From: a virus
Direction: 5' to 3' (one strand)
DNA length: 22,443 nucleotides
Virus record (IMG/VR): IMGVR_UViG_3300020188_000827
Location: 1-22,443 of that record
A program made the translations under genes and the position numbers. Below the pieces are notes generated by a model. That model had not been told where the DNA came from and did no database searches. It saw only the letters and a program-made list of their open reading frames with translations. Below, piece by piece: positions 4,349-20,016 of the stretch. Position 1 is the first letter of the stretch. The number at the start of each line of letters is the position of its first letter.

Positions 4349-5224
4349 CTAGGAAGCCGTGAAAAAATTTACGGGATTAAAGTTTACCTGTGCTTGGAAC
4401 TCATATGGTTCTTCTTCAGTACCACATGCAGTACATCTCATGAGTACTTCTTTGTTTACACCTATATTGGAAATCTCTGAGATAAATTCTTCTATCTGTT
4501 TTCCAACAGCACTTTCACAGTTTTCTAAAAATTCGCGAATATTATTTGAGTCATTAACGATTATGTCATCGCTGTCTTTATCAACAGCAGGAATTGTGAT
4601 AGAAGCCACACTATCCACCATTATATCAAAATTTAATTGAGAAAGTTCTATAAAATTACTATTAAATGCACGAATTCTTTCCACTTCATCATCTATGGTA
4701 GCAATTGATTGTAAACTTCTTTCACTTCTAAAGTTTGCTACTCCGGCCTTTACTGTAGTTTCATAACTAAAAGGTCTAATTTCTACTAGTAGACCTGTAT
4801 CAGTATTAAATTGATATGCATCATCTAATGTACTCATAGTGGATAAAGCACCCTCTACACTGACGTTTTCAGTGACAACTTCTTCACATTTATCACAAGT
4901 GCTGGATACTTCCATATCATCACCATAAGTAGCACCCTGAATAGCAATTAGTAATGCATCTATGTCATTACTTAAAAGTTTTCTTGGTAATTTGATTGTT
5001 GGTATACAACTGCTAATTACTGTGGCAATTGCTTCACCGTTTAATAATGCATCTGGATTTTTTAGCATTAGTTCATCCTTAGCAGTCATGGGATATACTG
5101 GTAATTCTCCAGTTTCCGACATGTCTACTACATCCGGGGTATAAAATTTACCTTTACTGGGTAATTGTGTATATAACTTTGGCGACCTAAAATGTCCTGC
5201 TAGTGGATTGGTATTATCTGCCAT
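4349..5224 (-). CDS. 26: Baseplate hub protein gp26 (T4 baseplate family)
   Basis: The 291-aa product carries the family opening LPSKGKFY (21-28), followed by YPMTAKDEL (44-52), NPDALLNGEA (56-65) and the conserved VISSCIP (69-75), as in marine T4-like gp26 proteins annotated as baseplate hub subunits. It is longer than T4 gp26 (208 aa). Two Cys pairs, CDKC (110-113) and CTAC (264-267), could bind one zinc. It should act in assembly of the baseplate hub in the infected cell. The start ATG has AGGAG upstream on the minus strand and a GATAAATA late-promoter box 57 nt further up. It ends in TAG and is followed by the 65-aa gene. It is one of only two minus-strand genes in the window. Confidence 0.88.
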   Translation of the reverse strand: MADNTNPLAGHFRSPKLYTQLPSKGKFYTPDVVDMSETGELPVYPMTAKDELMLKNPDALLNGEAIATVISSCIPTIKLPRKLLSNDIDALLIAIQGATYGDDMEVSSTCDKCEEVVTENVSVEGALSTMSTLDDAYQFNTDTGLLVEIRPFSYETTVKAGVANFRSERSLQSIATIDDEVERIRAFNSNFIELSQLNFDIMVDSVASITIPAVDKDSDDIIVNDSNNIREFLENCESAVGKQIEEFISEISNIGVNKEVLMRCTACGTEEEPYEFQAQVNFNPVNFFTAS

Positions 5225-5248: not shown

Positions 5249-5256
5249 GATAAATA
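5249..5256 (+). promoter_or_regulatory. Late promoter box GATAAATA for the 878-aa virion gene
   Basis: GATAAATA lies 67 nt upstream of ATG 5324. It lies on the gp26 side of the minus-strand box, so the two late promoters point toward each other and their 5' leaders overlap. Confidence 0.68.
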
Positions 5257-5281: not shown

Positions 5282-5289
5282 TATTTATC
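5282..5289 (-). promoter_or_regulatory. Late promoter box GATAAATA for gp26
   Basis: The minus strand reads GATAAATA, one base off the T4 late -10 consensus TATAAATA and identical to the boxes before six plus-strand units in this window. It lies 57 nt upstream of the gp26 ATG. T4 late promoters need the phage sigma factor gp55; that this box is used the same way is inferred. It faces the plus-strand box at 5249-5256. Confidence 0.7.
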
Positions 5290-5323: not shown

Positions 5324-7960
5324 ATGGCAAATTTTAAGGGTACGATAACAGACAGTGAAAGCAACACATATAACGTTGATGTGTCTGTGCCTGATTTTGC
5401 CCTGGAATCAACATTAAAAAAGATAGAAGATATTTTAAGTAAGTCAACTAAACTTAATTCTGACACAAAAGAATCCATAGAAAAACTAGTTAAAGAAACA
5501 AAATCAGGCAATGAGAAAAAAGAAACTGATAACCTAGTTAAAACAATGGAAAAGTTCTTTAAAGAAAATCAGTCTAAAAAGAAAACACTCAGAGAAAGAG
5601 TTAGTGCTGATGTTCTTGATAATATGGAAAGGGACTTCAGACAGGTTGGTAATGCTGTAACTACTTTAACAACAGTATTAATAACAGCAGGTGCAGTTGC
5701 AAGTACATTCTTAGTAAAAGGATTTACAAATTTAGGTGAAGGGTTAAAAACATTAACCGATGTTGGTGGTGCTTTTGGTGATTCTCTCTCACAAACAAGT
5801 ATAAGTGCAGAAGAGAATATCCTGTCCATGAACAAACTGGGCTTGACAACAGGTCAGGCTGTTGAAGTACTGGGTAATTATTCAAGGACTATGGCGGTAT
5901 TAGGCCAAAGTAGTGTAGTTGGTGCAACAAAATCTTTCTTAGACTTATCAGACGGCGGATTAGCATTTGGTTCAACTCTTCAAGATGCAACAGAATTCTT
6001 GCAAGAAGACTTAATGTTCAGAACAATGATGTTGAGAAGAGATCAGATCAACAATGAACAAGCAATTAGAGATTCTTTAGCATTAAATCGAAATCTCAGA
6101 ATGTTCTCTACATTACTAGGTATTAACAGTGATGAATTAAAGAAAAATGCTCAGAATGTTATAGACGGAAATACAGCCTTTAAAGCCTATGCGGCTAGTT
6201 TGCAAAACGGCCAAAGTGTTATTACAGGTGCAGAAATGTTGGCAACAGGGTTGTTTGGTTCGTTAGGTGAAGCAGGACAACAGGTTGCAAATGGTCTTTT
6301 AACAATATCTGCTACTGGTGTTGGTGCTATAGATGATTTTGTAAATGAGTTAGTGCCTTTGGCTCCTGGCGTTGCTAGAGTGGTTGAAGATGTTGCGAAA
6401 GGATTAAGATCAGGGCGTATAGACCAGTCAAATGCCAACCAAGCAGTATTAAGAATAACAGAAGCATTTGCTAATGTAGACCCATCAACAATCAATCAAC
6501 TAATACCTATTATTTCAGGATTAGGTGGCGAGCTTGCCGGAACTTCAGAAGTTTTGGTACAAGGATTTATTAATGCAGGTAATAGTGTTGACAAATTAAG
6601 ACAGCAATTAGATATGCCACTTGCATTTAGTGATACACAAAGCGGTCTTATCACATTCCAAAACATTGTAAGTAAAGCACAAGGAGCCTTGTCAGGTTTC
6701 CAAAATGCATTGGTGATAGGTGCAAGTCAAGGATTAAATGGATTTAGTAAATTACTTGATTCCGCAATACAGAACGAAGAATTTGCAGAAATGCTTACAA
6801 ATGCAGGTAGAAGATTTGGCACAATATTTAATAATGTGATTTCAAGAATGGGCGGTATGGATGCCGCAATAGCAAAGATTTCAGACGGCATAGGATATCT
6901 GCTTGAAGAAGGTGCACAATTATTTGAAAATATTTTAAATGGGTTTGTGGACAAACAAGGCAACTTGCAAATATATCAAGGCTTTGTCAACATGATAGCA
7001 GAAGGCCTAGTAGCGGCACTAAAATTAGCAGGTGTTGTTATAATGGAAGGCTTTAAAATAGCAATTACAAATATGGATGTAGTTGGTGCAATAGTTGGAG
7101 GCTTTTTGACCTTGTTTGCACTAAAAAGTTTGGCTACAGCCGTAACAAGTGTACTTATTGCAGGAATGACCTCTTTATTTACAAAAGCGGCGGCTGGATT
7201 GGGTTTAACTACTACATTAACAACTGCAACGACGGCAGGAACATCAGCCGCAGGTGCGGCCGCAACAGGCACCGCCGCTAATAAACTTTTAAATAAAGAT
7301 GGTAAACCTAACAACAAGCCCAAAGCAAACAAAACAACAACTAAAGGAGTACTAAAAGGTGCTACTAGAGTTGCTGGTAAATTCCTACTACCTGTAACTG
7401 CGGCATTGGGACTGTATGATGCCTTTCAAGGTTTTGGTGCAGATCAGAATGCTTCATTTACTGGCAAAATGGCAAATGCAGGTTCCAGTTTATTAAATGG
7501 TTTAACCTTTGGATTATTAGGTAGCAGTTCCAAAGAAATTGCAGAAAGAGCTCAAGGAAAAGAGGTTGAATCTAATACAGCACTAGACAGCAATGTTGCC
7601 TTAAGAGAAGCAGTGATGAATGTTACTGCAAAATCTATGACAATACATATTACAGACCCAACTATTGTTAGATTGGTTAATCCTGTGATGAATACAACTA
7701 ATAGGTTGAATGCAACACAACGTAATAATACTGCTCCAATAGATGTTGTTACGGCGACACAAAGGGAAATTGATACTGCAACTAATATTCAAAACAGTGG
7801 CATAGATCCTAAGAATTATACACCTGAGGAAAAAGAACTAGTAGACAAAGTAAACAACCTGTCCGATCAACAAACATCGGTTTTACAACTTATGCTTAGT
7901 GAATCTAAAAAACAAACTAAACATCTTGCAGATTTACTAAACAAAGACTTTAACGATTAA
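5324..7960 (+). CDS. Large virion structural protein, tape-measure-like (878 aa)
   Basis: The 878-aa product begins with a Lys/Glu-rich helical, coiled-coil-prone region (about 20-100). A hydrophobic helix follows at about 108-135 (LTTVLITAGAVASTF), then a long helical body. A cluster of membrane-like segments lies near 565-620 (VVGAIVGGFLTLFALKS), then an Ala/Gly/Thr-rich linker to about 655 and a polar tail. Length, coiled coil and internal hydrophobic helices are typical of tail tape-measure proteins, and the place between gp26 and gp20 fits a tail gene. It has no clear likeness to T4 gp29 (590 aa) that I can recognise, so the tape-measure role is inferred from architecture. A virion-packaged membrane-active protein is the main alternative. 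It has its own late promoter. Confidence 0.6.
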   Translation: MANFKGTITDSESNTYNVDVSVPDFALESTLKKIEDILSKSTKLNSDTKESIEKLVKETKSGNEKKETDNLVKTMEKFFKENQSKKKTLRERVSADVLDNMERDFRQVGNAVTTLTTVLITAGAVASTFLVKGFTNLGEGLKTLTDVGGAFGDSLSQTSISAEENILSMNKLGLTTGQAVEVLGNYSRTMAVLGQSSVVGATKSFLDLSDGGLAFGSTLQDATEFLQEDLMFRTMMLRRDQINNEQAIRDSLALNRNLRMFSTLLGINSDELKKNAQNVIDGNTAFKAYAASLQNGQSVITGAEMLATGLFGSLGEAGQQVANGLLTISATGVGAIDDFVNELVPLAPGVARVVEDVAKGLRSGRIDQSNANQAVLRITEAFANVDPSTINQLIPIISGLGGELAGTSEVLVQGFINAGNSVDKLRQQLDMPLAFSDTQSGLITFQNIVSKAQGALSGFQNALVIGASQGLNGFSKLLDSAIQNEEFAEMLTNAGRRFGTIFNNVISRMGGMDAAIAKISDGIGYLLEEGAQLFENILNGFVDKQGNLQIYQGFVNMIAEGLVAALKLAGVVIMEGFKIAITNMDVVGAIVGGFLTLFALKSLATAVTSVLIAGMTSLFTKAAAGLGLTTTLTTATTAGTSAAGAAATGTAANKLLNKDGKPNNKPKANKTTTKGVLKGATRVAGKFLLPVTAALGLYDAFQGFGADQNASFTGKMANAGSSLLNGLTFGLLGSSSKEIAERAQGKEVESNTALDSNVALREAVMNVTAKSMTIHITDPTIVRLVNPVMNTTNRLNATQRNNTAPIDVVTATQREIDTATNIQNSGIDPKNYTPEEKELVDKVNNLSDQQTSVLQLMLSESKKQTKHLADLLNKDFND

Positions 7961-8041: not shown

Positions 8042-9763
8042 ATGAGTTGGAGAAAATACTTTTCTAGTGTCGATAACAGTGGTTTACCATTAAATGTAAC
8101 AGGTAATACCCCTGAAGGAGGCCCAGGAGCGGCAACAAGCAGATATGCTAGTTGGTTGCCGGAAGTTTATGCCGGTTCTCCTAACCGTTTGATGAGATAT
8201 ATGCAATATGATCAAATGGACAATGACTTAGAAATCAATTCAGCATTGGACACAATAGCAGAATTTGGTACTCAAGAAGATGAATATAGTGGACTTCCTT
8301 TTGAAATAAACTATAATAGAGACCCTTCTGACACAGAACAAAAGATAATTACTAAGACCCTAACTCAATGGTGCAGGCTCAATGAGATGCATAAAAGAGC
8401 ATTTAGAGTGTTCCGTAGCACTATAAAATACGGTGATCAATTCTTTATTAGAGACCCAGAGACTTATAAATTATTTTGGATAGACCCTGCTAATGTAGAG
8501 AAAGTTATTGTTAATGAAAGTGAAGGCAAAAAGATAGAAACATATTTCATTAAAAATTTAGAACCTAACTTTGCAGATATGGTTGCTACAGATGTGTCCG
8601 GATTACATGCAAGGCCATATGGCTCCGGTGCCGGAATGATGGGCGGTGGACTTCAAGGACCGCAAACTGGTAACTATTTAACTGGTGCAATAGACGGTGT
8701 AGACCAGGGTGTTCCTGTAGATGCAAAACATGTTGTTCATATAAGTTTAACTGAAGCAATGGACCATGCATGGCCTTTTGGTGTAAGTATTTTAGAACCA
8801 ATATTTAAAGTATTCAAACAAAAAGAATTATTAGAAGACAGTATTATTATATACAGGGTTCACAGAGCACCTGAAAGACGTGTGTTCTTTATTGATGTGG
8901 GTAACATGCCACCACATAAAGCAAGACAGTATTTGGAACAAGTAAAATACGAAGTACAGCAAAAACGTGTTCCTAATAAAAAGTCAGATGGCAGTAGTGT
9001 TGCAGATGCGGCCTACAATCCAATGAGTATGTTAGAAGATTACTTCTTTGCACAAACGGCAGATGGTAGAGGTAGTAAAGTAGACACACTACCAGGCGGT
9101 GAAAACTTAGGACAAATAGACGATTTAAGATATTTTAATAATAAACTTTTAAGAGGTTTAAGAGTACCAAGCAGTTACTTGCCTACTGGACCAGAAGATG
9201 GAAGTAGTGTTTATAACGACGGTAAAGTGGGTATTGCTTACATTCAGGAATACAGATTTGCTAGATACTGTGAAAGATTACAAAAACAAATACAAGAAGA
9301 TTTAGATACAGAATTCAAAATGTTCCTCAAACACAGAGGTATAGAATTAGATAATTCAGATTTCTTTATTACATTTAATAAACCAATGAACTTTAGTTCA
9401 TATAGAGACCTACAAATTGATCAGGAAAGAGCTAACTTGTTTAATACATTGGCGGCTACACCGTTCTTAAGTAATCAATTTAAATTGAAGAAATATCTAG
9501 GTCTTACAGAAGACGAATTTAAAGACAACGAAGAATTATGGCGTAAAGAAAACGGTTATGAAAAATTTGTTGATGGTGAAAAACAAGCAGATCTCAGAAA
9601 TCTTGGTATAAGACCAGAGCCTGATGCATCGGTAACACCTGGAGCAGATTTAGACTTTGGTGATTTACCTGATCAAGCAATGGATAATACAGACGATCTA
9701 GGCATAAATACTACTGATACAAATCCAAACCAAATACCTGGTGGGAATACACCAGAACTTTAA
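8042..9763 (+). CDS. 20: Portal vertex protein gp20
   Basis: The 573-aa protein (T4 gp20 is 524 aa) has the family's most conserved stretches: IYRVHRAPERRVFFIDVGN (about 274-292), MPPHKARQYL, a KVDTLPGGENLG block, LRVPSSYLP and KPMNFSSYRDLQ. It forms the dodecameric portal at one head vertex, starts prohead assembly, and is the channel for DNA packaging and the docking site of the neck. ATG 8042 follows an AGGA site and a late promoter box. The C-terminal 60 residues are polar and low-complexity, as in marine relatives. It is the first gene of the head operon that continues through gp23; the next ATG begins 1 nt after its stop. Confidence 0.96.
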   Translation: MSWRKYFSSVDNSGLPLNVTGNTPEGGPGAATSRYASWLPEVYAGSPNRLMRYMQYDQMDNDLEINSALDTIAEFGTQEDEYSGLPFEINYNRDPSDTEQKIITKTLTQWCRLNEMHKRAFRVFRSTIKYGDQFFIRDPETYKLFWIDPANVEKVIVNESEGKKIETYFIKNLEPNFADMVATDVSGLHARPYGSGAGMMGGGLQGPQTGNYLTGAIDGVDQGVPVDAKHVVHISLTEAMDHAWPFGVSILEPIFKVFKQKELLEDSIIIYRVHRAPERRVFFIDVGNMPPHKARQYLEQVKYEVQQKRVPNKKSDGSSVADAAYNPMSMLEDYFFAQTADGRGSKVDTLPGGENLGQIDDLRYFNNKLLRGLRVPSSYLPTGPEDGSSVYNDGKVGIAYIQEYRFARYCERLQKQIQEDLDTEFKMFLKHRGIELDNSDFFITFNKPMNFSSYRDLQIDQERANLFNTLAATPFLSNQFKLKKYLGLTEDEFKDNEELWRKENGYEKFVDGEKQADLRNLGIRPEPDASVTPGADLDFGDLPDQAMDNTDDLGINTTDTNPNQIPGGNTPEL

Positions 9764-10966: not shown

Positions 10967-11593
10967 ATGGCGAGAAAACTATACGAATACATGAGTCCTG
11001 AGCAGTCTAAGGTTCAGATTACTGAATCTAATGACGGTAAAGACCTGTTCATGCAAGGATTATTCATTCAAGGTGATGTAAAAAACCAAAATGGTAGAGT
11101 ATATCCCAAAGATGAAATAAGAAAAGCAGTAGAAAGTGTAAAATCTCGTTTATCTAGTGGTGAAACTGTAATGGGAGAGTTAGATCACCCAGAAGAATTA
11201 CAAATTAACCTAGACCGTGTAAGTCACATAATAACAGATATGCATTGTGATGATTCAAACGGATTAGGAAAATTAAAAATCATAGAAACACCAATGGGTA
11301 ACATTGCAAGAGCATTGTTAAAAGCAGGTGCTAAACTTGGTGTAAGTAGTAGAGGTTCAGGAAACGTTAACGAAAGTGGTAAAGTTTCCGACTTCGACAT
11401 AGTAACAGTGGACATTGTGGCACAACCAAGTGCACCAGATGCCTACCCAAAGACAATCTATGAAAGTTTATTTAACATGCGAGGCGGAGCATCATTATTT
11501 GATACCGCTGGAGCATTAACACACGATAAAAGTGCAGAAAAGTATTTGATGAAAGCAATCACTGGTTTCATCAATGAATTAAAAATAAAGTAG
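10967..11593 (+). CDS. 21: Prohead core protease gp21
   Basis: The 208-aa protein (T4 gp21 is 212 aa) is the serine protease that digests the scaffold and trims capsid proteins during head maturation. Catalytic signatures of the family are visible: GELDHPE with the His at 74, GVSSRGSG with the nucleophile Ser at 127 or 128, and the DFDIVTVDIVAQPSAPDA block (about 142-159) conserved after it. It acts inside the prohead and then inactivates itself. ATG 10967 follows AGGAG. It lies 23 nt after the gp67-like gene and 9 nt before gp22, so the scaffold, protease and capsid are made from one operon. Confidence 0.95.
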   Translation: MARKLYEYMSPEQSKVQITESNDGKDLFMQGLFIQGDVKNQNGRVYPKDEIRKAVESVKSRLSSGETVMGELDHPEELQINLDRVSHIITDMHCDDSNGLGKLKIIETPMGNIARALLKAGAKLGVSSRGSGNVNESGKVSDFDIVTVDIVAQPSAPDAYPKTIYESLFNMRGGASLFDTAGALTHDKSAEKYLMKAITGFINELKIK

Positions 11594-12730: not shown

Positions 12731-13876
12731 ATGGCAGAATTATTTGAAAGCAACTGGTCCGCAACTAAAGACGCTTTGCTTGAAGGCTTATCTGGAAACA
12801 GAAAATCTTCATTAGATGTGGTCCTCGAAAATACAAAGAGACATTTGTCAGAGGCCGCAACAGCAGGTGCCACAGGTGCAGGTTCAGTAGCAACATTAAA
12901 CAAAGTTATGTTACCATTAATTAGAAGGGTTATGCCTTCAGTTATTGCTAACGAACTAGTAGGCGTTCAGCCTATGACTGGTCCAGTAGGACAAATCCAC
13001 ACACTAAGAGTCAGATATGCTGAAACTGGTGGTGGAGCAACAGCAGGTGACGAGGCTTTAAGTCCTTTTAAACTTGCAGGTAGTTACGCAGGTTCTCCAG
13101 ACGCTACAGCGGCGGCTGAAGGAACAGCAGGTAACAAAATGTCAATCCAAATCTTAAAAGAAACTGTTGAAGCAAAAACAAGACGTTTAAGTGCTAGATG
13201 GACATTTGAAGCGGCACAAGATGCAGAAGCAATGCATGGCGTGGACGTTGAAGCAGAAATTATGCAGGCATTAGCTCAAGAGATCGTAGTTGAAATCGAC
13301 CAAGAAATTATCGGTTCACTAAGAACTCTAGCAGGTGCTGGTACTACACTAGACTTTACAGGTTCATCATTAATTGGTACACCTGCATACGTTGGTGACA
13401 GACATGCATTATTGGCTATAGAGATCAACAGAGCGGCTAACAGAATCGCGGCTAGAACAAGACGTGGTGCTGGTAACTATATCGTTGTATCTCCAGAAGC
13501 ATTGACAATCCTACAAAGTGCGTCAACTTCAACATTTGCTAGAACAACAGAAGGTTCTTTTGAAGCACCTACAAACACTAAGTTTGTTGGTACATTAAAC
13601 GGAACAATCAAAGTATTCGTAGACAACTATGCGGCTGACGGTACAAAAGTACTAGTTGGTTACAAAGGTTCAAGCGAAACTGATGCTCCAGCATTCTATT
13701 GCCCATACATTCCATTAATGAGCACAGGCCCAGTGATGGACCCAAGCACATTTGAACCAGTAGTAAGTTTCATGACTAGATATGGTTATAAAGAACTTAC
13801 AAATACTGCTTCATCTCTTGGTAATGCGGCAGACTACGTTGATGCGATTACTTTAAGTAACGTTGTATTCCAGTAA
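12731..13876 (+). CDS. 23: Major capsid protein gp23
   Basis: The 381-aa T4-type major capsid protein has the signature blocks KVMLPLIRRVMP (58-69), GVQPMTGPVGQIHTLRVRYA (78-97), SARWTFEAAQDAEAMHG, RRGAGNYIVVSPEALTILQS, FYCPYIPLMSTGPV and SFMTRYGYKELTN. It forms the hexameric shell (HK97-like fold). A gp21 cleavage motif, L-x-E before Ala, is visible as LSE-A at 39-42, so the mature protein would be about 340 aa. The whole protein is much shorter than T4 gp23 (521 aa) and cyanophage homologues (about 465-470 aa from memory), mainly in the N-terminal part and before the GAGNY block. ATG 12731 follows AGGAG. A strong terminator follows the gene. Confidence 0.96.
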   Translation: MAELFESNWSATKDALLEGLSGNRKSSLDVVLENTKRHLSEAATAGATGAGSVATLNKVMLPLIRRVMPSVIANELVGVQPMTGPVGQIHTLRVRYAETGGGATAGDEALSPFKLAGSYAGSPDATAAAEGTAGNKMSIQILKETVEAKTRRLSARWTFEAAQDAEAMHGVDVEAEIMQALAQEIVVEIDQEIIGSLRTLAGAGTTLDFTGSSLIGTPAYVGDRHALLAIEINRAANRIAARTRRGAGNYIVVSPEALTILQSASTSTFARTTEGSFEAPTNTKFVGTLNGTIKVFVDNYAADGTKVLVGYKGSSETDAPAFYCPYIPLMSTGPVMDPSTFEPVVSFMTRYGYKELTNTASSLGNAADYVDAITLSNVVFQ

Positions 13877-14009: not shown

Positions 14010-17000
14010 ATGGCAACAAAACGTACCTACATAAATGCAGATGAAGAACTAGTAATCAAAGGTCAACTGACCATTGAAGGAAATGTAACTCAGATTGAAA
14101 CAACTCAGCAGGTTACAAATCTTCAAGGCAATGTTTTCACTATTAACAGTGATGGTGATAATACTCCGGCCATATTAAATTTAAACAGTAACGGTACTTT
14201 AGGTTCATTAACATTTACTGATGGCGGTAATATTGCCGCAGAACCCGGACTACAAGGAAATTTATTTGTAGCATCTGGCCAATCTATTATTATAGACGGT
14301 GGCGGAAGTATAGGTGGTTCAGGATTTACAGGAAATTTAACAGGTACCGCCAGTAATGCAGATGCATTGAGTAGTGCAGTAACTTTAAATTTAAGCGGTA
14401 ATGCAACAGGCAGTACAAGTTTTATAAATGCTGGAGACTCAGTAACTTTACCGGTCAATTTAGTAAACAGTGGAGTAACTGCAGGTACTTATGGTACAAG
14501 CAATGATGCGGCACAAATTACTGTTGATGCACAAGGTAGAATTACAACAGCAAGTGATGTTGCTATAAATCATGATGCTTTATTAAATTTTGTAGCAGAC
14601 GAACACATTGCTCATAGTAGTGTAACTCTTACTGCAGGAGCAGGTTTAACTGGTGGTGGGGACATCACATCAAGTAGAACTTTTGATATTGTAGGCGGAA
14701 CAGGTATAACTGTAAATGCTAACGATATACAAACAGATGATTCCTATATCAAAGGATTATTAAGTGCAAGTAATGGTGTTGACTACAATAGTTCAACAGG
14801 AGCCTTTCAAGCAGTTGAAAGTGAAATACAACATGATAGTTTAGATGGCTTTGTAGCAAATGAACATATAAATCACAGTGGCGTAACACTTACAGCAGGA
14901 ACAGGTCTTACAGGCGGTGGCGATATAACTACAAGTAGAACATTTAATGTTGTGGGTGGCGATGGTATTACTGCAAATGCAAATGATATACAAGTAGACA
15001 GTACTGTAGTTAGAACAAGTGGTAATCAATCTATTGCAGGAACAAAAACATTTACCGGTACAGTAGATTTAAGTGGGGCAACAGTACCTGGCTTTACAGT
15101 TACTGGAGAATTATCAGTAACAGGAAATGTAAACTCACTTAACTATGTAGATCTACAGGTACAAAATTCAGAAATAATTTTAAACAGTAATGTGGTAACG
15201 GCTCAAGATGCAGTAATTAAAAATGAAAGAGGTTCCACAGGTAACGATACATATTTAAAATGGGACGAAGGAACTAGCAGATGGCAGTTTAGTAATGATG
15301 GTAGCACCGATAATAACATGCTACTATTTTCAGACTTTAGTGCAAGTAACGGTGTAGACTATAATAGCTCAACAGGAGCATTTCAGGCTGTAGAAAGTGA
15401 AATACAACATGACAGTTTAGATGGATTTGTAGCAAATGAACACATAGACCATACATCTGTAAGTATTACAGCAGGTACAGGTTTAACAGGTGGCGGCACA
15501 ATAGCATCTACAAGAACATTGAATGTTATAGGCGGAGATGGTATTACTGCAAATGCAAATGATATTGAAGTAGATAGTACAGTAATAAGAACAACAGGTA
15601 ATCAAAGTTTAGCAGGTGTAAAAACATTTACTGGTGAACTTTTGTTACCAACTACAGATGTAACAACCGAAAATGCTATATTTACAGACAGCAATGAAGC
15701 ATGGGTATATGTTAATGGTAGTAAAAAACAAATTACGCCAACAAGCAGTTTAGGTACAGCAGAACAAGCCAATAGTTCTTTATCTTATTCTCTAGTAGGC
15801 AGTACAACAGGAACAAGTACATACGAACTATACGCAGGTAAAAGAACTATAGGCGTAGACGATTTTCATGCTATTAAAGGTTTAGAAGAAGGAACATATA
15901 CAAGTTTAAGTGAAACTGCAACAGCAGTAACAATAGAAGCAGACATAAGTGCAATCAGAGGTGCATTTAGTGTTATTGATAACGGCGGTGATGGTAGTTT
16001 ATCATATAATTCAGGTACAGGTGTTATTACATATACAGGCCCAAGTGCAAGTGATATTAGATCGCATTTTAGTGGCACTGGACTTATTGCGTATAATAGC
16101 GGAACAGGAGTAATTAGTACATCTGCAGACAATTATGGTAATTGGAATTTTGACACAGATACAAGTTCAAGTGAAAGTGTTTCTAGTGGCAACTTAGTTT
16201 CCATATTGGGTGGTAGTGGAATAGATGTAACACATAGTGGAAAAACTATAACAGTCACAAATACTAATAGTGCTGACATAACAGGTGTTATAGCAGGCTC
16301 TGGTTTGTCAGGAGGCGGATTAAGTGGTACTGTTACCCTGGACATTGGTGCAGGCACAGGCATAAGTGTTGCGGCTGATACAATAAGTGTTGACATGTCA
16401 GCATTTGATACTGATGATTTAGCAGAAGGCACAAACAAATATTATACTGACGCCAGAGTAAGAGCGGCAATTAGTGCAACAAATGGTTCTGCAGGTTATA
16501 ATAGTGCTACTGGTGTGTTCAGCATACCAAATTCAACATCTCATATTGGTGAAGGTTCCAATCTATATTATACAGATGCAAGAGCCAGAAATGCTATTAG
16601 TGTAAGTGGTGATTTAAGTTATAATAGTGCAACTGGTGTTATCAGTTTCACTAACGATGCTGGTGATATAGAAAGTGTTTCTATAACAGCGGGTACAGGT
16701 TTAACAGGTACTGCCAGTGCATCTAGTGGCGCATTTAGTACAACACTTAATGTAACTGGTTTAACAGTCAGTGAACTAGCACCGACATCATTATTAACCA
16801 GCTCAGAAACATTTGCTGATAGCGACACACAGTTAATGACAGCGAAGGCTATAGATGACAGAATTATCAGTAAAGGTTACAGCACAACAACAGGTACAGT
16901 AACACAAGTCAACGGTGGTAGTGGACTTACAGGTAGTGTAACAACATCAGGAAGTTTAGCCGTTGGTGCAGGTAATTATATACTAGTTGGTGCCAATGAT

Positions 17001-17489
17001 GTAGGCGTCGATGCAACATCCACAAATACAGCAAACAAAGTTGTGGCTAGAGATGGTAGTGGTAACTTTGCCGCAGGAACTATAACTGCTACAGCAACAA
17101 AGGCCCAATATGCTGACTTGGCTGAGAATTATGTAGCAGACGAAAGTTATGAACCAGGAACTGTTTTAGTAATTGGCGGAAAACACGAAGTAAGTGTAAC
17201 AGATGAAGCAGGAAGTTACAAAGTAGTAGGTGTTGTATCAACAGACCCTGCACACTTAATGAATGTAGATTGTGAAGGCGAACATGTAGTAGCAGTAGCA
17301 TTACGTGGAAGAGTTCCTTGTAAAGTAACTGGTAATGTAAACAAAGGCGATGTACTTATTGCTAGTGATACTCCAGGGTTTGCTATGGTAGGTGCTATGG
17401 CACATACATTAAGTCCATTACAAATAGTTGGTAGATCATTAGAAACTAAAACAGATGCAATGCCTGGTGTTGTTGAAATCATAGTTTAA
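14010..17489 (+). CDS. Long repeat-containing fibre / virion appendage protein (1159 aa)
   Basis: The product is Gly/Ser/Thr/Asn-rich and predicted beta, with no long helices, typical of trimeric phage fibres. After the N-terminal part (MATKRTYINADEELVIKGQL) come repeated modules built on TAGTGLTGGG, NANDI and AGTKTFTG. Two copies of 99 aa (codons from 14763 and 15339) are nearly identical. Then come NSGTGVITYTGPSASDI- and NKYYTDARVRAAIS-type modules. The C-terminal domain (about 1033-1159: YADLAENYVADESYEPGT, VVGVVSTDPAHLMN, VALRGRVPCKVTG) is a common end of marine phage fibres and resembles the autoprocessing chaperone type. It should be an adsorption or baseplate-attached fibre. The exact position on the virion is not shown. 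Confidence 0.75.
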   Translation: MATKRTYINADEELVIKGQLTIEGNVTQIETTQQVTNLQGNVFTINSDGDNTPAILNLNSNGTLGSLTFTDGGNIAAEPGLQGNLFVASGQSIIIDGGGSIGGSGFTGNLTGTASNADALSSAVTLNLSGNATGSTSFINAGDSVTLPVNLVNSGVTAGTYGTSNDAAQITVDAQGRITTASDVAINHDALLNFVADEHIAHSSVTLTAGAGLTGGGDITSSRTFDIVGGTGITVNANDIQTDDSYIKGLLSASNGVDYNSSTGAFQAVESEIQHDSLDGFVANEHINHSGVTLTAGTGLTGGGDITTSRTFNVVGGDGITANANDIQVDSTVVRTSGNQSIAGTKTFTGTVDLSGATVPGFTVTGELSVTGNVNSLNYVDLQVQNSEIILNSNVVTAQDAVIKNERGSTGNDTYLKWDEGTSRWQFSNDGSTDNNMLLFSDFSASNGVDYNSSTGAFQAVESEIQHDSLDGFVANEHIDHTSVSITAGTGLTGGGTIASTRTLNVIGGDGITANANDIEVDSTVIRTTGNQSLAGVKTFTGELLLPTTDVTTENAIFTDSNEAWVYVNGSKKQITPTSSLGTAEQANSSLSYSLVGSTTGTSTYELYAGKRTIGVDDFHAIKGLEEGTYTSLSETATAVTIEADISAIRGAFSVIDNGGDGSLSYNSGTGVITYTGPSASDIRSHFSGTGLIAYNSGTGVISTSADNYGNWNFDTDTSSSESVSSGNLVSILGGSGIDVTHSGKTITVTNTNSADITGVIAGSGLSGGGLSGTVTLDIGAGTGISVAADTISVDMSAFDTDDLAEGTNKYYTDARVRAAISATNGSAGYNSATGVFSIPNSTSHIGEGSNLYYTDARARNAISVSGDLSYNSATGVISFTNDAGDIESVSITAGTGLTGTASASSGAFSTTLNVTGLTVSELAPTSLLTSSETFADSDTQLMTAKAIDDRIISKGYSTTTGTVTQVNGGSGLTGSVTTSGSLAVGAGNYILVGANDVGVDATSTNTANKVVARDGSGNFAAGTITATATKAQYADLAENYVADESYEPGTVLVIGGKHEVSVTDEAGSYKVVGVVSTDPAHLMNVDCEGEHVVAVALRGRVPCKVTGNVNKGDVLIASDTPGFAMVGAMAHTLSPLQIVGRSLETKTDAMPGVVEIIV
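14763..15059 (+). repeat. Fibre internal repeat, copy 1 (99 aa)
   Basis: In-frame 297-nt unit starting SASNGVDYN and ending AGTKTFTG. The second copy is at 15339-15635. At the protein level the two differ at about 16 of 99 positions, and their first 36 residues are identical. A more diverged relative precedes copy 1 (about 14575-14760). Confidence 0.9.
15339..15635 (+). repeat. Fibre internal repeat, copy 2 (99 aa)
   Basis: Same 297-nt length and frame as 14763-15059, ending AGVKTFTG. In the first 108 nt all 11 base differences from copy 1 are synonymous, pointing to an old duplication held by selection on the protein. Confidence 0.9.
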
Positions 17490-17510: not shown

Positions 17511-17518
17511 GATAAATA
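17511..17518 (+). promoter_or_regulatory. Late promoter box GATAAATA for the 316-aa virion gene
   Basis: GATAAATA lies 22 nt after the preceding stop and 114 nt before ATG 17633. The long leader in between is strongly structured. Confidence 0.68.
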
Positions 17519-17534
17519 GTATTGACGGAGAAGA

Positions 17535-17618
17535 CTGTGTCGTCATTTATGGATTGGCCATAAAGACACAGACATCAGTTATTAAGGCATGGTGTCCTTA
17601 TACAACTTGATGAACTGA
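17535..17618 (+). promoter_or_regulatory. Structured mRNA leader of the 316-aa virion gene
   Basis: Two stem-loops fill the 5' leader. The first: CTGTGTC (17535-17541) with GACACAG (17565-17571) encloses, after a 4-nt bulge, TTTATGG/CCATAAA (17546-17552 with 17558-17564) around a 5-nt loop. The second: TCAGTT/AACTGA (17575-17580 with 17613-17618) encloses TAAGG/CCTTA (17583-17587 with 17596-17600). No T tract follows, so it is not a terminator. The gene's start lacks a strong Shine-Dalgarno site, so the structure may affect translation or RNA stability. Confidence 0.55.
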
Positions 17619-17632
17619 CCTGGACATAAAGT

Positions 17633-18600: not shown

Positions 18601-20016
18601 ATGCCAAGAGCAAAAAAGACTACTACAAAGACAGATAAAAAGGTAGTAGCAAAGAAGCAAACAGTACAAGACATAGAAAAGATTATTAAGAAGCAAGTGC
18701 AAGAGCAATTAGAGGAAGCACTTCTTAATATTGAAATAGAGTCGCCCGAACCGGTAAAAACAGATGCTTGGGTTGATATGGATTTGCTTAGAGAGGAAAT
18801 TAAAAAGGAAGTACAATTTGCACAACGTAAAGTTGAGCATGTACAAAAAATAGAAAATAAGTCTGATATTAGTATATCTAGAAGTGAACTAAAACTTGTT
18901 GGTGAAAAAGAATTTTTATTTACAAGCGATTTAGACGGACTTGTAATAAGTGAAAATGATAAGGCTTTAATAACAGCAAGTAAAAGTGGTGCTATAGGAT
19001 TTGGATTAAAAGCACCTAGAAGTTTTGGGGTAGGTAGTGCCCATTTTAGAGCTAATTATACCAGTGATGCTCCAATGCCAACAAGTGGTGATGGAAGTAC
19101 AAGAGGTGTAATTGTTGAAGGTGACGGTGACGATGATAAAACCTTCACATTTAGAGTTCTAAGTAGAATGAACAGGCAGGGTCTTAATGTAACAGGAGAT
19201 GGAAGTTTATTAGTAAATTCTCCTAAAGATGAAACATTAAGCAGAGTAACAATTAATCAGACTAACAATGATAGGCCTGCATTAAATGTTATAAGTGCTA
19301 GTAAATATTTTGATGAAACTGTTTTAAATTTACAGGCAAAAGCAGGATTAGAATCAAAATTTAATTTTATTAATGCCAAAGCAGATGTGGATAATAACGG
19401 AGGCTCTGGTATAGATGTTTTTAAAGTAAATGCTGAAGGAAGTGTTTACAGTGAACAGAGTTTTTATTCAAATGGTAAAGGTTATGCAGAACTATTTGAA
19501 TGGGCAGACGGGAATCATAAAAATGAAAACAGAGATGGTTTTACGGTTGCTCTAAACGAAAAAGGACAATTAATTATAGCAGATGAAGGAGATAGTATTA
19601 TAGGAGTTGTAAGTTCAAATCCAGCATTTATTGGAAATGCAGGCTGGAACGGATTACAAGACAGATATAATCTTAATGCAGATAAAGAGCATATGAAAAC
19701 CAAATACAAAATTGTTGAATGGTTAGATGATACTGGTGTTTTACACAGTTATGATGTAAAAGATTTAGACCAAGATTTTGCTTTTCCTGAAAATGCTATA
19801 ATTTATGAAACAGACAGTCAAGGTAATGACATGATCAAAAGAATTTATAGAAGTGATTTTGATAAGTCTGAAGAATACACAGATAGAATTAATAACGGTT
19901 GGTCGCCGGTGATAATTGCAGGAACGACGCCAGTTTTTAAAGGGCAATTTATGGGCTCTAACTGGATTAAGGTTTCTGATATTAGTGATGACCTTGAACA
20001 ATGGATAATCAAATAA
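18601..20016 (+). CDS. Virion appendage protein with Peptidase_G2-like autoprocessing domain (471 aa)
   Basis: The product has a Lys-rich start, a coiled-coil-prone helix (about 20-85), then a beta-rich central part. From about 294 it has a domain recognisable by GYAELFEWADGNHKNENRDG, IIGVVSSNPAFIGN, and near the end NGWSPVIIAGTTPVFKGQ. This matches the pattern of the phage intramolecular chaperone/Peptidase_G2 domain (as in phi29-type appendage proteins), which trimerises the fibre and can then cut itself off. Whether the catalytic residues are intact cannot be judged by eye. ATG 18601 follows AAGGA. It should be co-transcribed with the 316-aa gene, 17 nt upstream, and may form one appendage with it. 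Confidence 0.72.
   Translation: MPRAKKTTTKTDKKVVAKKQTVQDIEKIIKKQVQEQLEEALLNIEIESPEPVKTDAWVDMDLLREEIKKEVQFAQRKVEHVQKIENKSDISISRSELKLVGEKEFLFTSDLDGLVISENDKALITASKSGAIGFGLKAPRSFGVGSAHFRANYTSDAPMPTSGDGSTRGVIVEGDGDDDKTFTFRVLSRMNRQGLNVTGDGSLLVNSPKDETLSRVTINQTNNDRPALNVISASKYFDETVLNLQAKAGLESKFNFINAKADVDNNGGSGIDVFKVNAEGSVYSEQSFYSNGKGYAELFEWADGNHKNENRDGFTVALNEKGQLIIADEGDSIIGVVSSNPAFIGNAGWNGLQDRYNLNADKEHMKTKYKIVEWLDDTGVLHSYDVKDLDQDFAFPENAIIYETDSQGNDMIKRIYRSDFDKSEEYTDRINNGWSPVIIAGTTPVFKGQFMGSNWIKVSDISDDLEQWIIK

Follow-up and report, generated by a model that had tools for sequence, protein, structure and literature searches.

Why is one fibre-type gene of the uncultured virus IMGVR_UViG_3300020188_000827 preceded by a strongly folded leader, lying between a late promoter and a weak ribosome site, and what might this leader do? 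The question was addressed in the window (i.e. the whole 22,443-nucleotide stretch analysed) and in relatives of the gene. The leader is best explained as a cis-acting, gene-specific junction RNA and a putative protein-bound translational operator, an explanation in which, taken as a whole, our confidence is about even. That a selected cis-acting RNA structure is present at all is, judged from sequence comparison, very probable.

The leader and the fibre gene of the window

The stretch comes from a T4-like phage: portal, protease and gp23 genes were recognised in it (Table 1), and the closest cultured proteins to its gp23 (61-69% identical) belong to large T4-like phages, e.g. PA5oct, GAP32 and 121Q. 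The leader occurs in a set of uncultured phages that includes at least one T4-like member. The fibre-type gene gave a weak tail-fibre match only (phrog_9942, E 6e-4), and no relative of its protein was found among cultured phages (phage collection, tblastn, E 1e-5) or in genome_contigs. An RNA-binding domain was searched for in the fibre protein and none was found, while a structure model of the N-terminal module (pLDDT 59.6) was set aside as unusable.

Two neighbouring fibre genes are without a structured leader: 14010-17489, encoding a 1159-aa protein with BppL_N matches, and 18601-20016, encoding a 471-aa protein with a Peptidase_G2 autoproteolytic domain. Elsewhere in the window, a pair of GATAAATA octamers, one on each strand and separated by about 25 nt (5249-5256, plus strand, and 5282-5289, minus strand), sits between the divergent genes 4349-5224 (minus) and 5324-7960 (plus).

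Table 1. Coordinates of the leader elements and of the genes recognised in the window.
Feature	Position	Strand	Remark
Portal gene	8042-9763		recognised in window
Protease gene	10967-11593		recognised in window
gp23 major head protein gene	12731-13876		recognised in window
T4-type late promoter GATAAATA	17511-17518	+	GATAAATA also upstream in relatives
P0, 5' strand (ACGG..AAG)	17525-17533	+	G17533-C17615, A17532-U17616, GG 17527-17528 with CC 17619-17620
Unpaired A, junction strand P0/P1	17534	+	A in 41/41 leaders
P1 arm	17535-17571	+	conserved 7-bp stem 17535-17541/17565-17571, closing C-G
P1 extra inner stem, long subclass	17546-17552/17558-17564	+	
Unpaired A, junction strand P1/P2	17572	+	A in 41/41 leaders
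P2 arm	17573-17612	+	stacked helices CAUCA/UGAUG plus GUU/AAC
P2 inserted hairpin UAAGG-CAUGGUGU-CCUUA, long subclass	17583-17600	+	
Unpaired AA, junction strand P2/P0	17613-17614	+	AA in 30/41, A in 11/41 leaders
P0, 3' strand (CUGACC)	17615-17620	+	pairing in relatives
Weak Shine-Dalgarno-like UGGA	17621-17624	+	directly 3' of P0; GGGGA or GGAG(A) there in relatives
Fibre-type gene, 316 aa	17633-18583	+	N-terminal module MAIFGNFKGTT.SEFKIGK conserved, remainder variable

Transcription presumably starts at about 17524-17525, as we judge from the promoter spacing of T4. The late promoter and the folded leader below it, both part of the original prediction, were borne out by the GATAAATA octamer and by the predicted energy of 17535-17618, which is -25.7 kcal/mol vs -16.1 (sd 3.1) in 200 shuffles, none of which was as low (z -3.1). 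The first hairpin, P1, is bulged and consists of 7 bp (CUGUGUC/GACACAG) and a further 7 bp (UUUAUGG/CCAUAAA) separated by a 4-nt bulge. Both hairpins of the two-domain leader described earlier are present, but they form the arms of a single three-way junction, and the element spans about 17525 to near 17620 rather than 17535-17618, since an outer helix, P0, closes both of them. P0 is weak in the window, with about four pairs (AG/CU plus GG/CC), and when the full leader is folded without constraints, the minimum-energy structure pairs the 5' part otherwise than in P0; the helix is assigned here because relatives show it. An intrinsic terminator was rejected, as there is no U run; ACAUCAG comes after P1 and AACUGACC after P2.

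The leader belongs to a long subclass, which has an extra P1 stem and a hairpin inserted in P2, the sequence of the insert being well kept. The P2 insert (GUUCGUAAGGCAUGGUGUCCUUAUUACAAC in most) occurs in the window (17578-17606) and at loci L002, L012, L014, L018, L020, L026, L027, L029, L031-L033 and L038; it is near letter-identical while the surrounding stems covary, and may be a second binding site.

The ribosome site is indeed weak, as first read (UGGA, 8 nt before ATG 17633). It had also been claimed that no other fibre gene here has such a leader, and this held: a grammar of the junction (two arms plus linkers), scanned over both strands of the window, fits solely at 17533, and the junction was not seen in the leaders below the other five plus-strand GATAAATA octamers. 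No tRNA or tmRNA was found in the window. The Rfam search proposed at the outset was run, and Rfam 15 gave 0 matches at the gathering threshold for the window and 10 relatives; below that threshold there were only chance matches at E 4-7, or none.

Architecture and covariation among relatives

Scanned with the fibre protein, viral_contigs yielded 54 loci, and GATAAATA lies upstream of the gene in all 41 of them whose match begins at residue 1. Thirteen of the 54 lack a match to R1 (a model of class I leaders): 12 match other parts of the protein only (L042-L046 and L048-L054, left out of the leader comparison) and L040 is class II. An N-terminal alignment scan gave 66 loci, including this distant class, whose N-termini read MA[IV]I.NAKGTSQS.FRIGKRG; L176 and L177 (matching residues 19-103 only, with no promoter before the match) were left out. 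Together with two further scans, from which the partial L205-L209 were left out, this yielded L210, L211 and 8 distinct leaders of class II, all with GATAAATA upstream. Duplicates were dropped (L001, L005 and L041 are identical to the window leader, L025 and L035 to L024, and L040 is on the same contig as L197), and the pooled set consists of 41 distinct leaders: 31 of class I, 8 of class II, L210 and L211. Alignment A1 holds 17 short leaders only, and the long ones enter in A2, which comprises all R1 matches (32 distinct rows) fitted to the model and is thus biased towards it. Alignment A4 misplaced class II and was kept out of the counts.

All 41 leaders share one architecture, P0..G-A-C-P1-G-A-C-P2-G-A(A)-C..P0'. 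The automatic grammar fits 40 of them, and L211 was fitted by hand with one P2 mismatch; among 12,300 dinucleotide shuffles it fits 11, and as the grammar itself requires the flanking letters, it is this shuffle rate, not invariance alone, that constitutes the test. The A of the first two crossings is invariant (Table 1), the closing pairs of P1 and P2 are C-G and the innermost P0 pair is G-C in every leader. Loops and stem sequences vary around these fixed bases: P1 is paired in 286/287 cells, a single position showing as many as six pair types, and P2 in 235/246. Two independent hairpins were therefore rejected as a description, since the invariant A linkers and a closing G-C pair connect both arms.

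Past its first pair, P0 is class-dependent. Most class I leaders have CGG/CCG over a small internal loop (14/17 leaders of A1); P0 is CGUAC/GUGCG in L006 and L011, CAAG/CUUG in L210 and GUGAG/CUUAC in L211. Most class II leaders have AUUUG/CAAGU or ACUUG/CAGGU (this alternative P0 was seen in L186-L202). In addition, class II leaders carry a 5' hairpin, AAGUCC/GGA(U/C)UU, beginning at about the predicted transcript start (e.g. L186:1920-1979), which shares bases with the 5' strand of P0; in the 8 leaders concerned the two are mutually exclusive, and a switch is possible. Such competition is what a small-molecule riboswitch or bistable switch, with ligand-dependent formation of P0, would predict. 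This reading is nevertheless hardly probable: three or four invariant unpaired A bases are very few for a ligand pocket, a rival hairpin of this kind is not present in all members of class I, and no riboswitch of Rfam was matched.

Pairing was found to be conserved in relatives with strong covariation; the original prediction had named its absence as the result that would speak against it. In A1, 91.7% of cells pair and 59 cells carry double changes, vs 20.6 (sd 3.2) in shuffles (0/500 as high) and 5-15 in controls with slid partners; in the model-biased A2 the count is 120 vs 33.1 (0/500). The number of A1 pairs with a double change is not above shuffles (71/500 as high), nor is that of further pair types (303/500). 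Double changes are absent from the A1 P0 pairs, whose cells are either intact or broken, and in class II from P0 and P2, P1 alone having them (4 pairs).

Cell counts do not count events, and changes were therefore also counted by parsimony on a protein tree (built on residues 1-160 of 28 class I proteins; near-duplicates, class II, L210 and L211 left out). P1 pairs 2, 5, 6 and 7 changed 5, 5, 7 and 6 times, equally on either strand, and are broken at 0/28 leaves. In P2 there were 3 changes at pair 2 and 11 at pair 3, with none broken; of the 28 leaders, 7 are unpaired at pair 4, 2 at pair 5 and 1 at pair 6. The comparison of leaders establishes the three helices, the single-A junction strands and the compensatory change.

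Pairing could be selected in DNA, for instance in a cruciform or at a site of recombination or module exchange. The element does directly precede a gene with a 3' part that is swapped between phages. A cruciform would give equal numbers of G-U and A-C cells, and there are 12 G-U vs 1 A-C (with 6 other mismatches) in 21 distinct P1 and 19 distinct P2 stems, counted in 34 of the 41 leaders after near-duplicates were dropped, the rows being related. Moreover, the element invariably lies after the promoter and before the ribosome site, on the sense strand, and its variable stem sequences offer no homology for recombination. A DNA-level element is thus very improbable; the G-U excess points to selection on the RNA strand, as support rather than proof.

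Linkage of the junction to one fibre family

Among 187 distinct stretches downstream of ATAAATA in the loci collected, 43 fit the grammar and all 43 precede a gene of the fibre family; 33 of these were labelled so automatically and 10 are long leaders with the ATG or first codons outside the stretch, sitting at the known leader positions of L112-L127. R1 found one strong match per record in 24/30 records, with six weak extras (E 0.1-1) at noise level, and the class II model R2 one in 23/26, missing L210-L212, which are not class II. A gene-blind DNA pattern scan of viral_contigs gave 19 matches, 15 of them real and all 15 in contigs known to carry the gene; the other four (L088, L090, L092 and L102) are GC-rich, gene-less and due to chance. 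Two further candidates were discarded, namely a second R1 match inside the fibre gene of L027 (20.7 bits), with no promoter before it in the stretch examined, and a match in HTVC008M (13.5 bits, E 0.38), which overlaps a minor coat gene at its end and is without the GAC architecture. In sets of cultured phages R1 matched 0/5 and 1/8 (weakly) and R2 0/13, the set of 8 and the R2 set being searched under stricter filters and thus giving weak negatives.

The strict linkage to the gene established by these scans bears on the idea, put forward at first, of a small RNA processed from the leader, taken here to act in trans. A compact folded 5' unit would suit such an RNA. However, no free-standing copy was found in the 30 (R1) and 26 (R2) records or in the pattern scan; there is no terminator after the fold and the gene follows directly; and the leader remains joined to its gene across differing upstream neighbours (two kinds of long or 360-aa protein, others, or nothing recognised). 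With the element found solely before one gene family and ending at its ribosome site, this proposal is highly unlikely.

Within the gene, synonymous codon variation begins with codon 2, and the constraint therefore does not extend past the start codon. What all leader carriers share of the protein is its N-terminal module, and the putative operator may for this reason be autogenous. Its position is that expected of an autogenous operator, i.e. gene-specific and beside its own ribosome site (43/43 before a family gene). The fibres range from 273 to 815 aa, with differing middles and the N-terminal module kept (e.g. L012, L027, L028, L029, L030, L047 and L210); the same C-terminal ending, ...TMAFYDGTNWRRIQDRAVIS, is often found in these variable proteins, and the middle of L210 has collagen-like matches.

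Possible mode of action and known systems

The Shine-Dalgarno (SD) site is not hidden: over the 41 leaders its mean unpaired probability is 0.51 vs 0.46 in shuffles, and that of the AUG 0.47 vs 0.44, the SD being picked by a simple rule and single leaders ranging from 0.07 to 0.85. SD-AUG spacing is 4-10 nt and the helices end before the SD-like site. Accessibility no lower than in shuffles argues against a simple sequestering hairpin.

An open site directly after P0 in class I would also suit a ribosome-recruiting enhancer, in which the junction docks on the 30S subunit (e.g. by an S15-like contact) and offsets the weak ribosome site; S15 is described as binding a three-way junction in 16S rRNA (PMC4684408). 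We consider an enhancer improbable, as the junction is kept in relatives with good GGAG sites (L006, L021 and L211) and one gene per genome uses it.

The main rival is a 5'-terminal mRNA stabiliser, a fold near the transcript start that blocks 5'-end-dependent decay with no specific ligand. The first paired bases of class I lie 7-9 nt past the promoter octamer, or at about +2 to +4 if the start follows T4 spacing, and the leaders are stable (z below -2 in 34/41). A 5'-terminal fold would indeed stabilise mRNA without any binding protein, which weighs against an operator. A plain hairpin would suffice for this purpose, however, and the invariant junction A and closing C-G pairs would be left unexplained; the other late leaders of the window are without the junction, and class II has another hairpin 5' of the junction. 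A stabiliser therefore appears unlikely. Use by a single gene per genome argues for gene-specific control over a general stabiliser or enhancer.

The first suggestion of a translational control element or protein-binding site thus stands as the best reading, in which the structure comes from comparison and the partner is one that we infer. The 5' end of the late transcript would fold as a compact three-way junction ending at the ribosome site of the fibre gene. The junction may be recognised by a protein, which could be the conserved N-terminal module of the fibre, an assembly partner of the fibre or some RNA-binding protein of the phage. Invariant junction bases, with loops and stems free to vary, are as expected if such a partner reads the shape of the junction rather than the loops. 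The bound junction would block or gate 30S loading on the adjacent weak ribosome site, and fibre synthesis would thereby be matched to assembly. The leader probably controls the amount of that fibre made; for the protein-operator mechanism itself, including its partner and the direction of control, our confidence falls a little short of even. The linkage of N-terminal module and leader may also partly reflect simple joint inheritance.

Possible, though rather doubtful, is the more specific view that this minimal three-way junction (G-A-C per strand crossing) represents an undescribed RNA family, and is the adhesin's autogenous operator read by the fibre N-terminal module. If so, the regulator would travel with the gene while the receptor-binding part is swapped between phages, making fibre supply self-limiting whichever receptor is recognised. 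For any operator of this kind, fibre supply would be under post-transcriptional control by a core fold of about 50 nt, small enough to be solved and to be tested with a reporter.

A literature search found no description of such an element. The T4 genes e, soc, 49 and I-TevI likewise have RNA structure at a late promoter of this type and a ribosome site, and their SD is sequestered on early read-through RNA, according to a review; the 5' arm of the gene e leader lies at or before the late promoter and is lost from late transcripts (PMC3014915). Unlike in e and soc, all three helices of the fibre leader are 3' of GATAAATA and the ribosome site is not hidden. A sequestering leader of the e/soc type was accordingly rejected, the SD and AUG not being paired off and the late RNA retaining the 5' arm. 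Genes 25 and 38 of T4 are both tail genes. As described in the same review, they too have a cis RNA structure at the initiation region, but with a helix between SD and AUG (PMC3014915), whereas here the helix is upstream of the SD. There being no helix between SD and AUG, a split ribosome site of this type was also rejected.

The T4 gene 43 and gene 32 operators are alike in that a structure lies upstream of or overlaps the ribosome site, and theirs are bound by the gene product (PMC3014915); they are a hairpin with a conserved loop or a pseudoknot, whereas the putative operator here is a three-way junction with variable loops. The manA and wcaG RNAs (RF01745 and RF01761), presented as structured 5' UTR elements of T4-like marine phages (PMC2864571), are tied to metabolic genes, unlike the fibre leader, which neither model matches. 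The operators of rpsO, bound by S15, resemble it by description in offering a three-way junction readable by a protein, at a different gene (PMC4684408). T4-like phages have few structured control RNAs: the T4 review lists just a handful of leader structures and states that functional characterisation of a riboswitch or trans-acting small RNA from T4 is lacking (PMC3014915). To these a compact, fibre-tied RNA with strong comparative support is now added. Its kind, a control element in a phage mRNA leader, is known, while the family, the three-way-junction design and the fibre target appear to be new.
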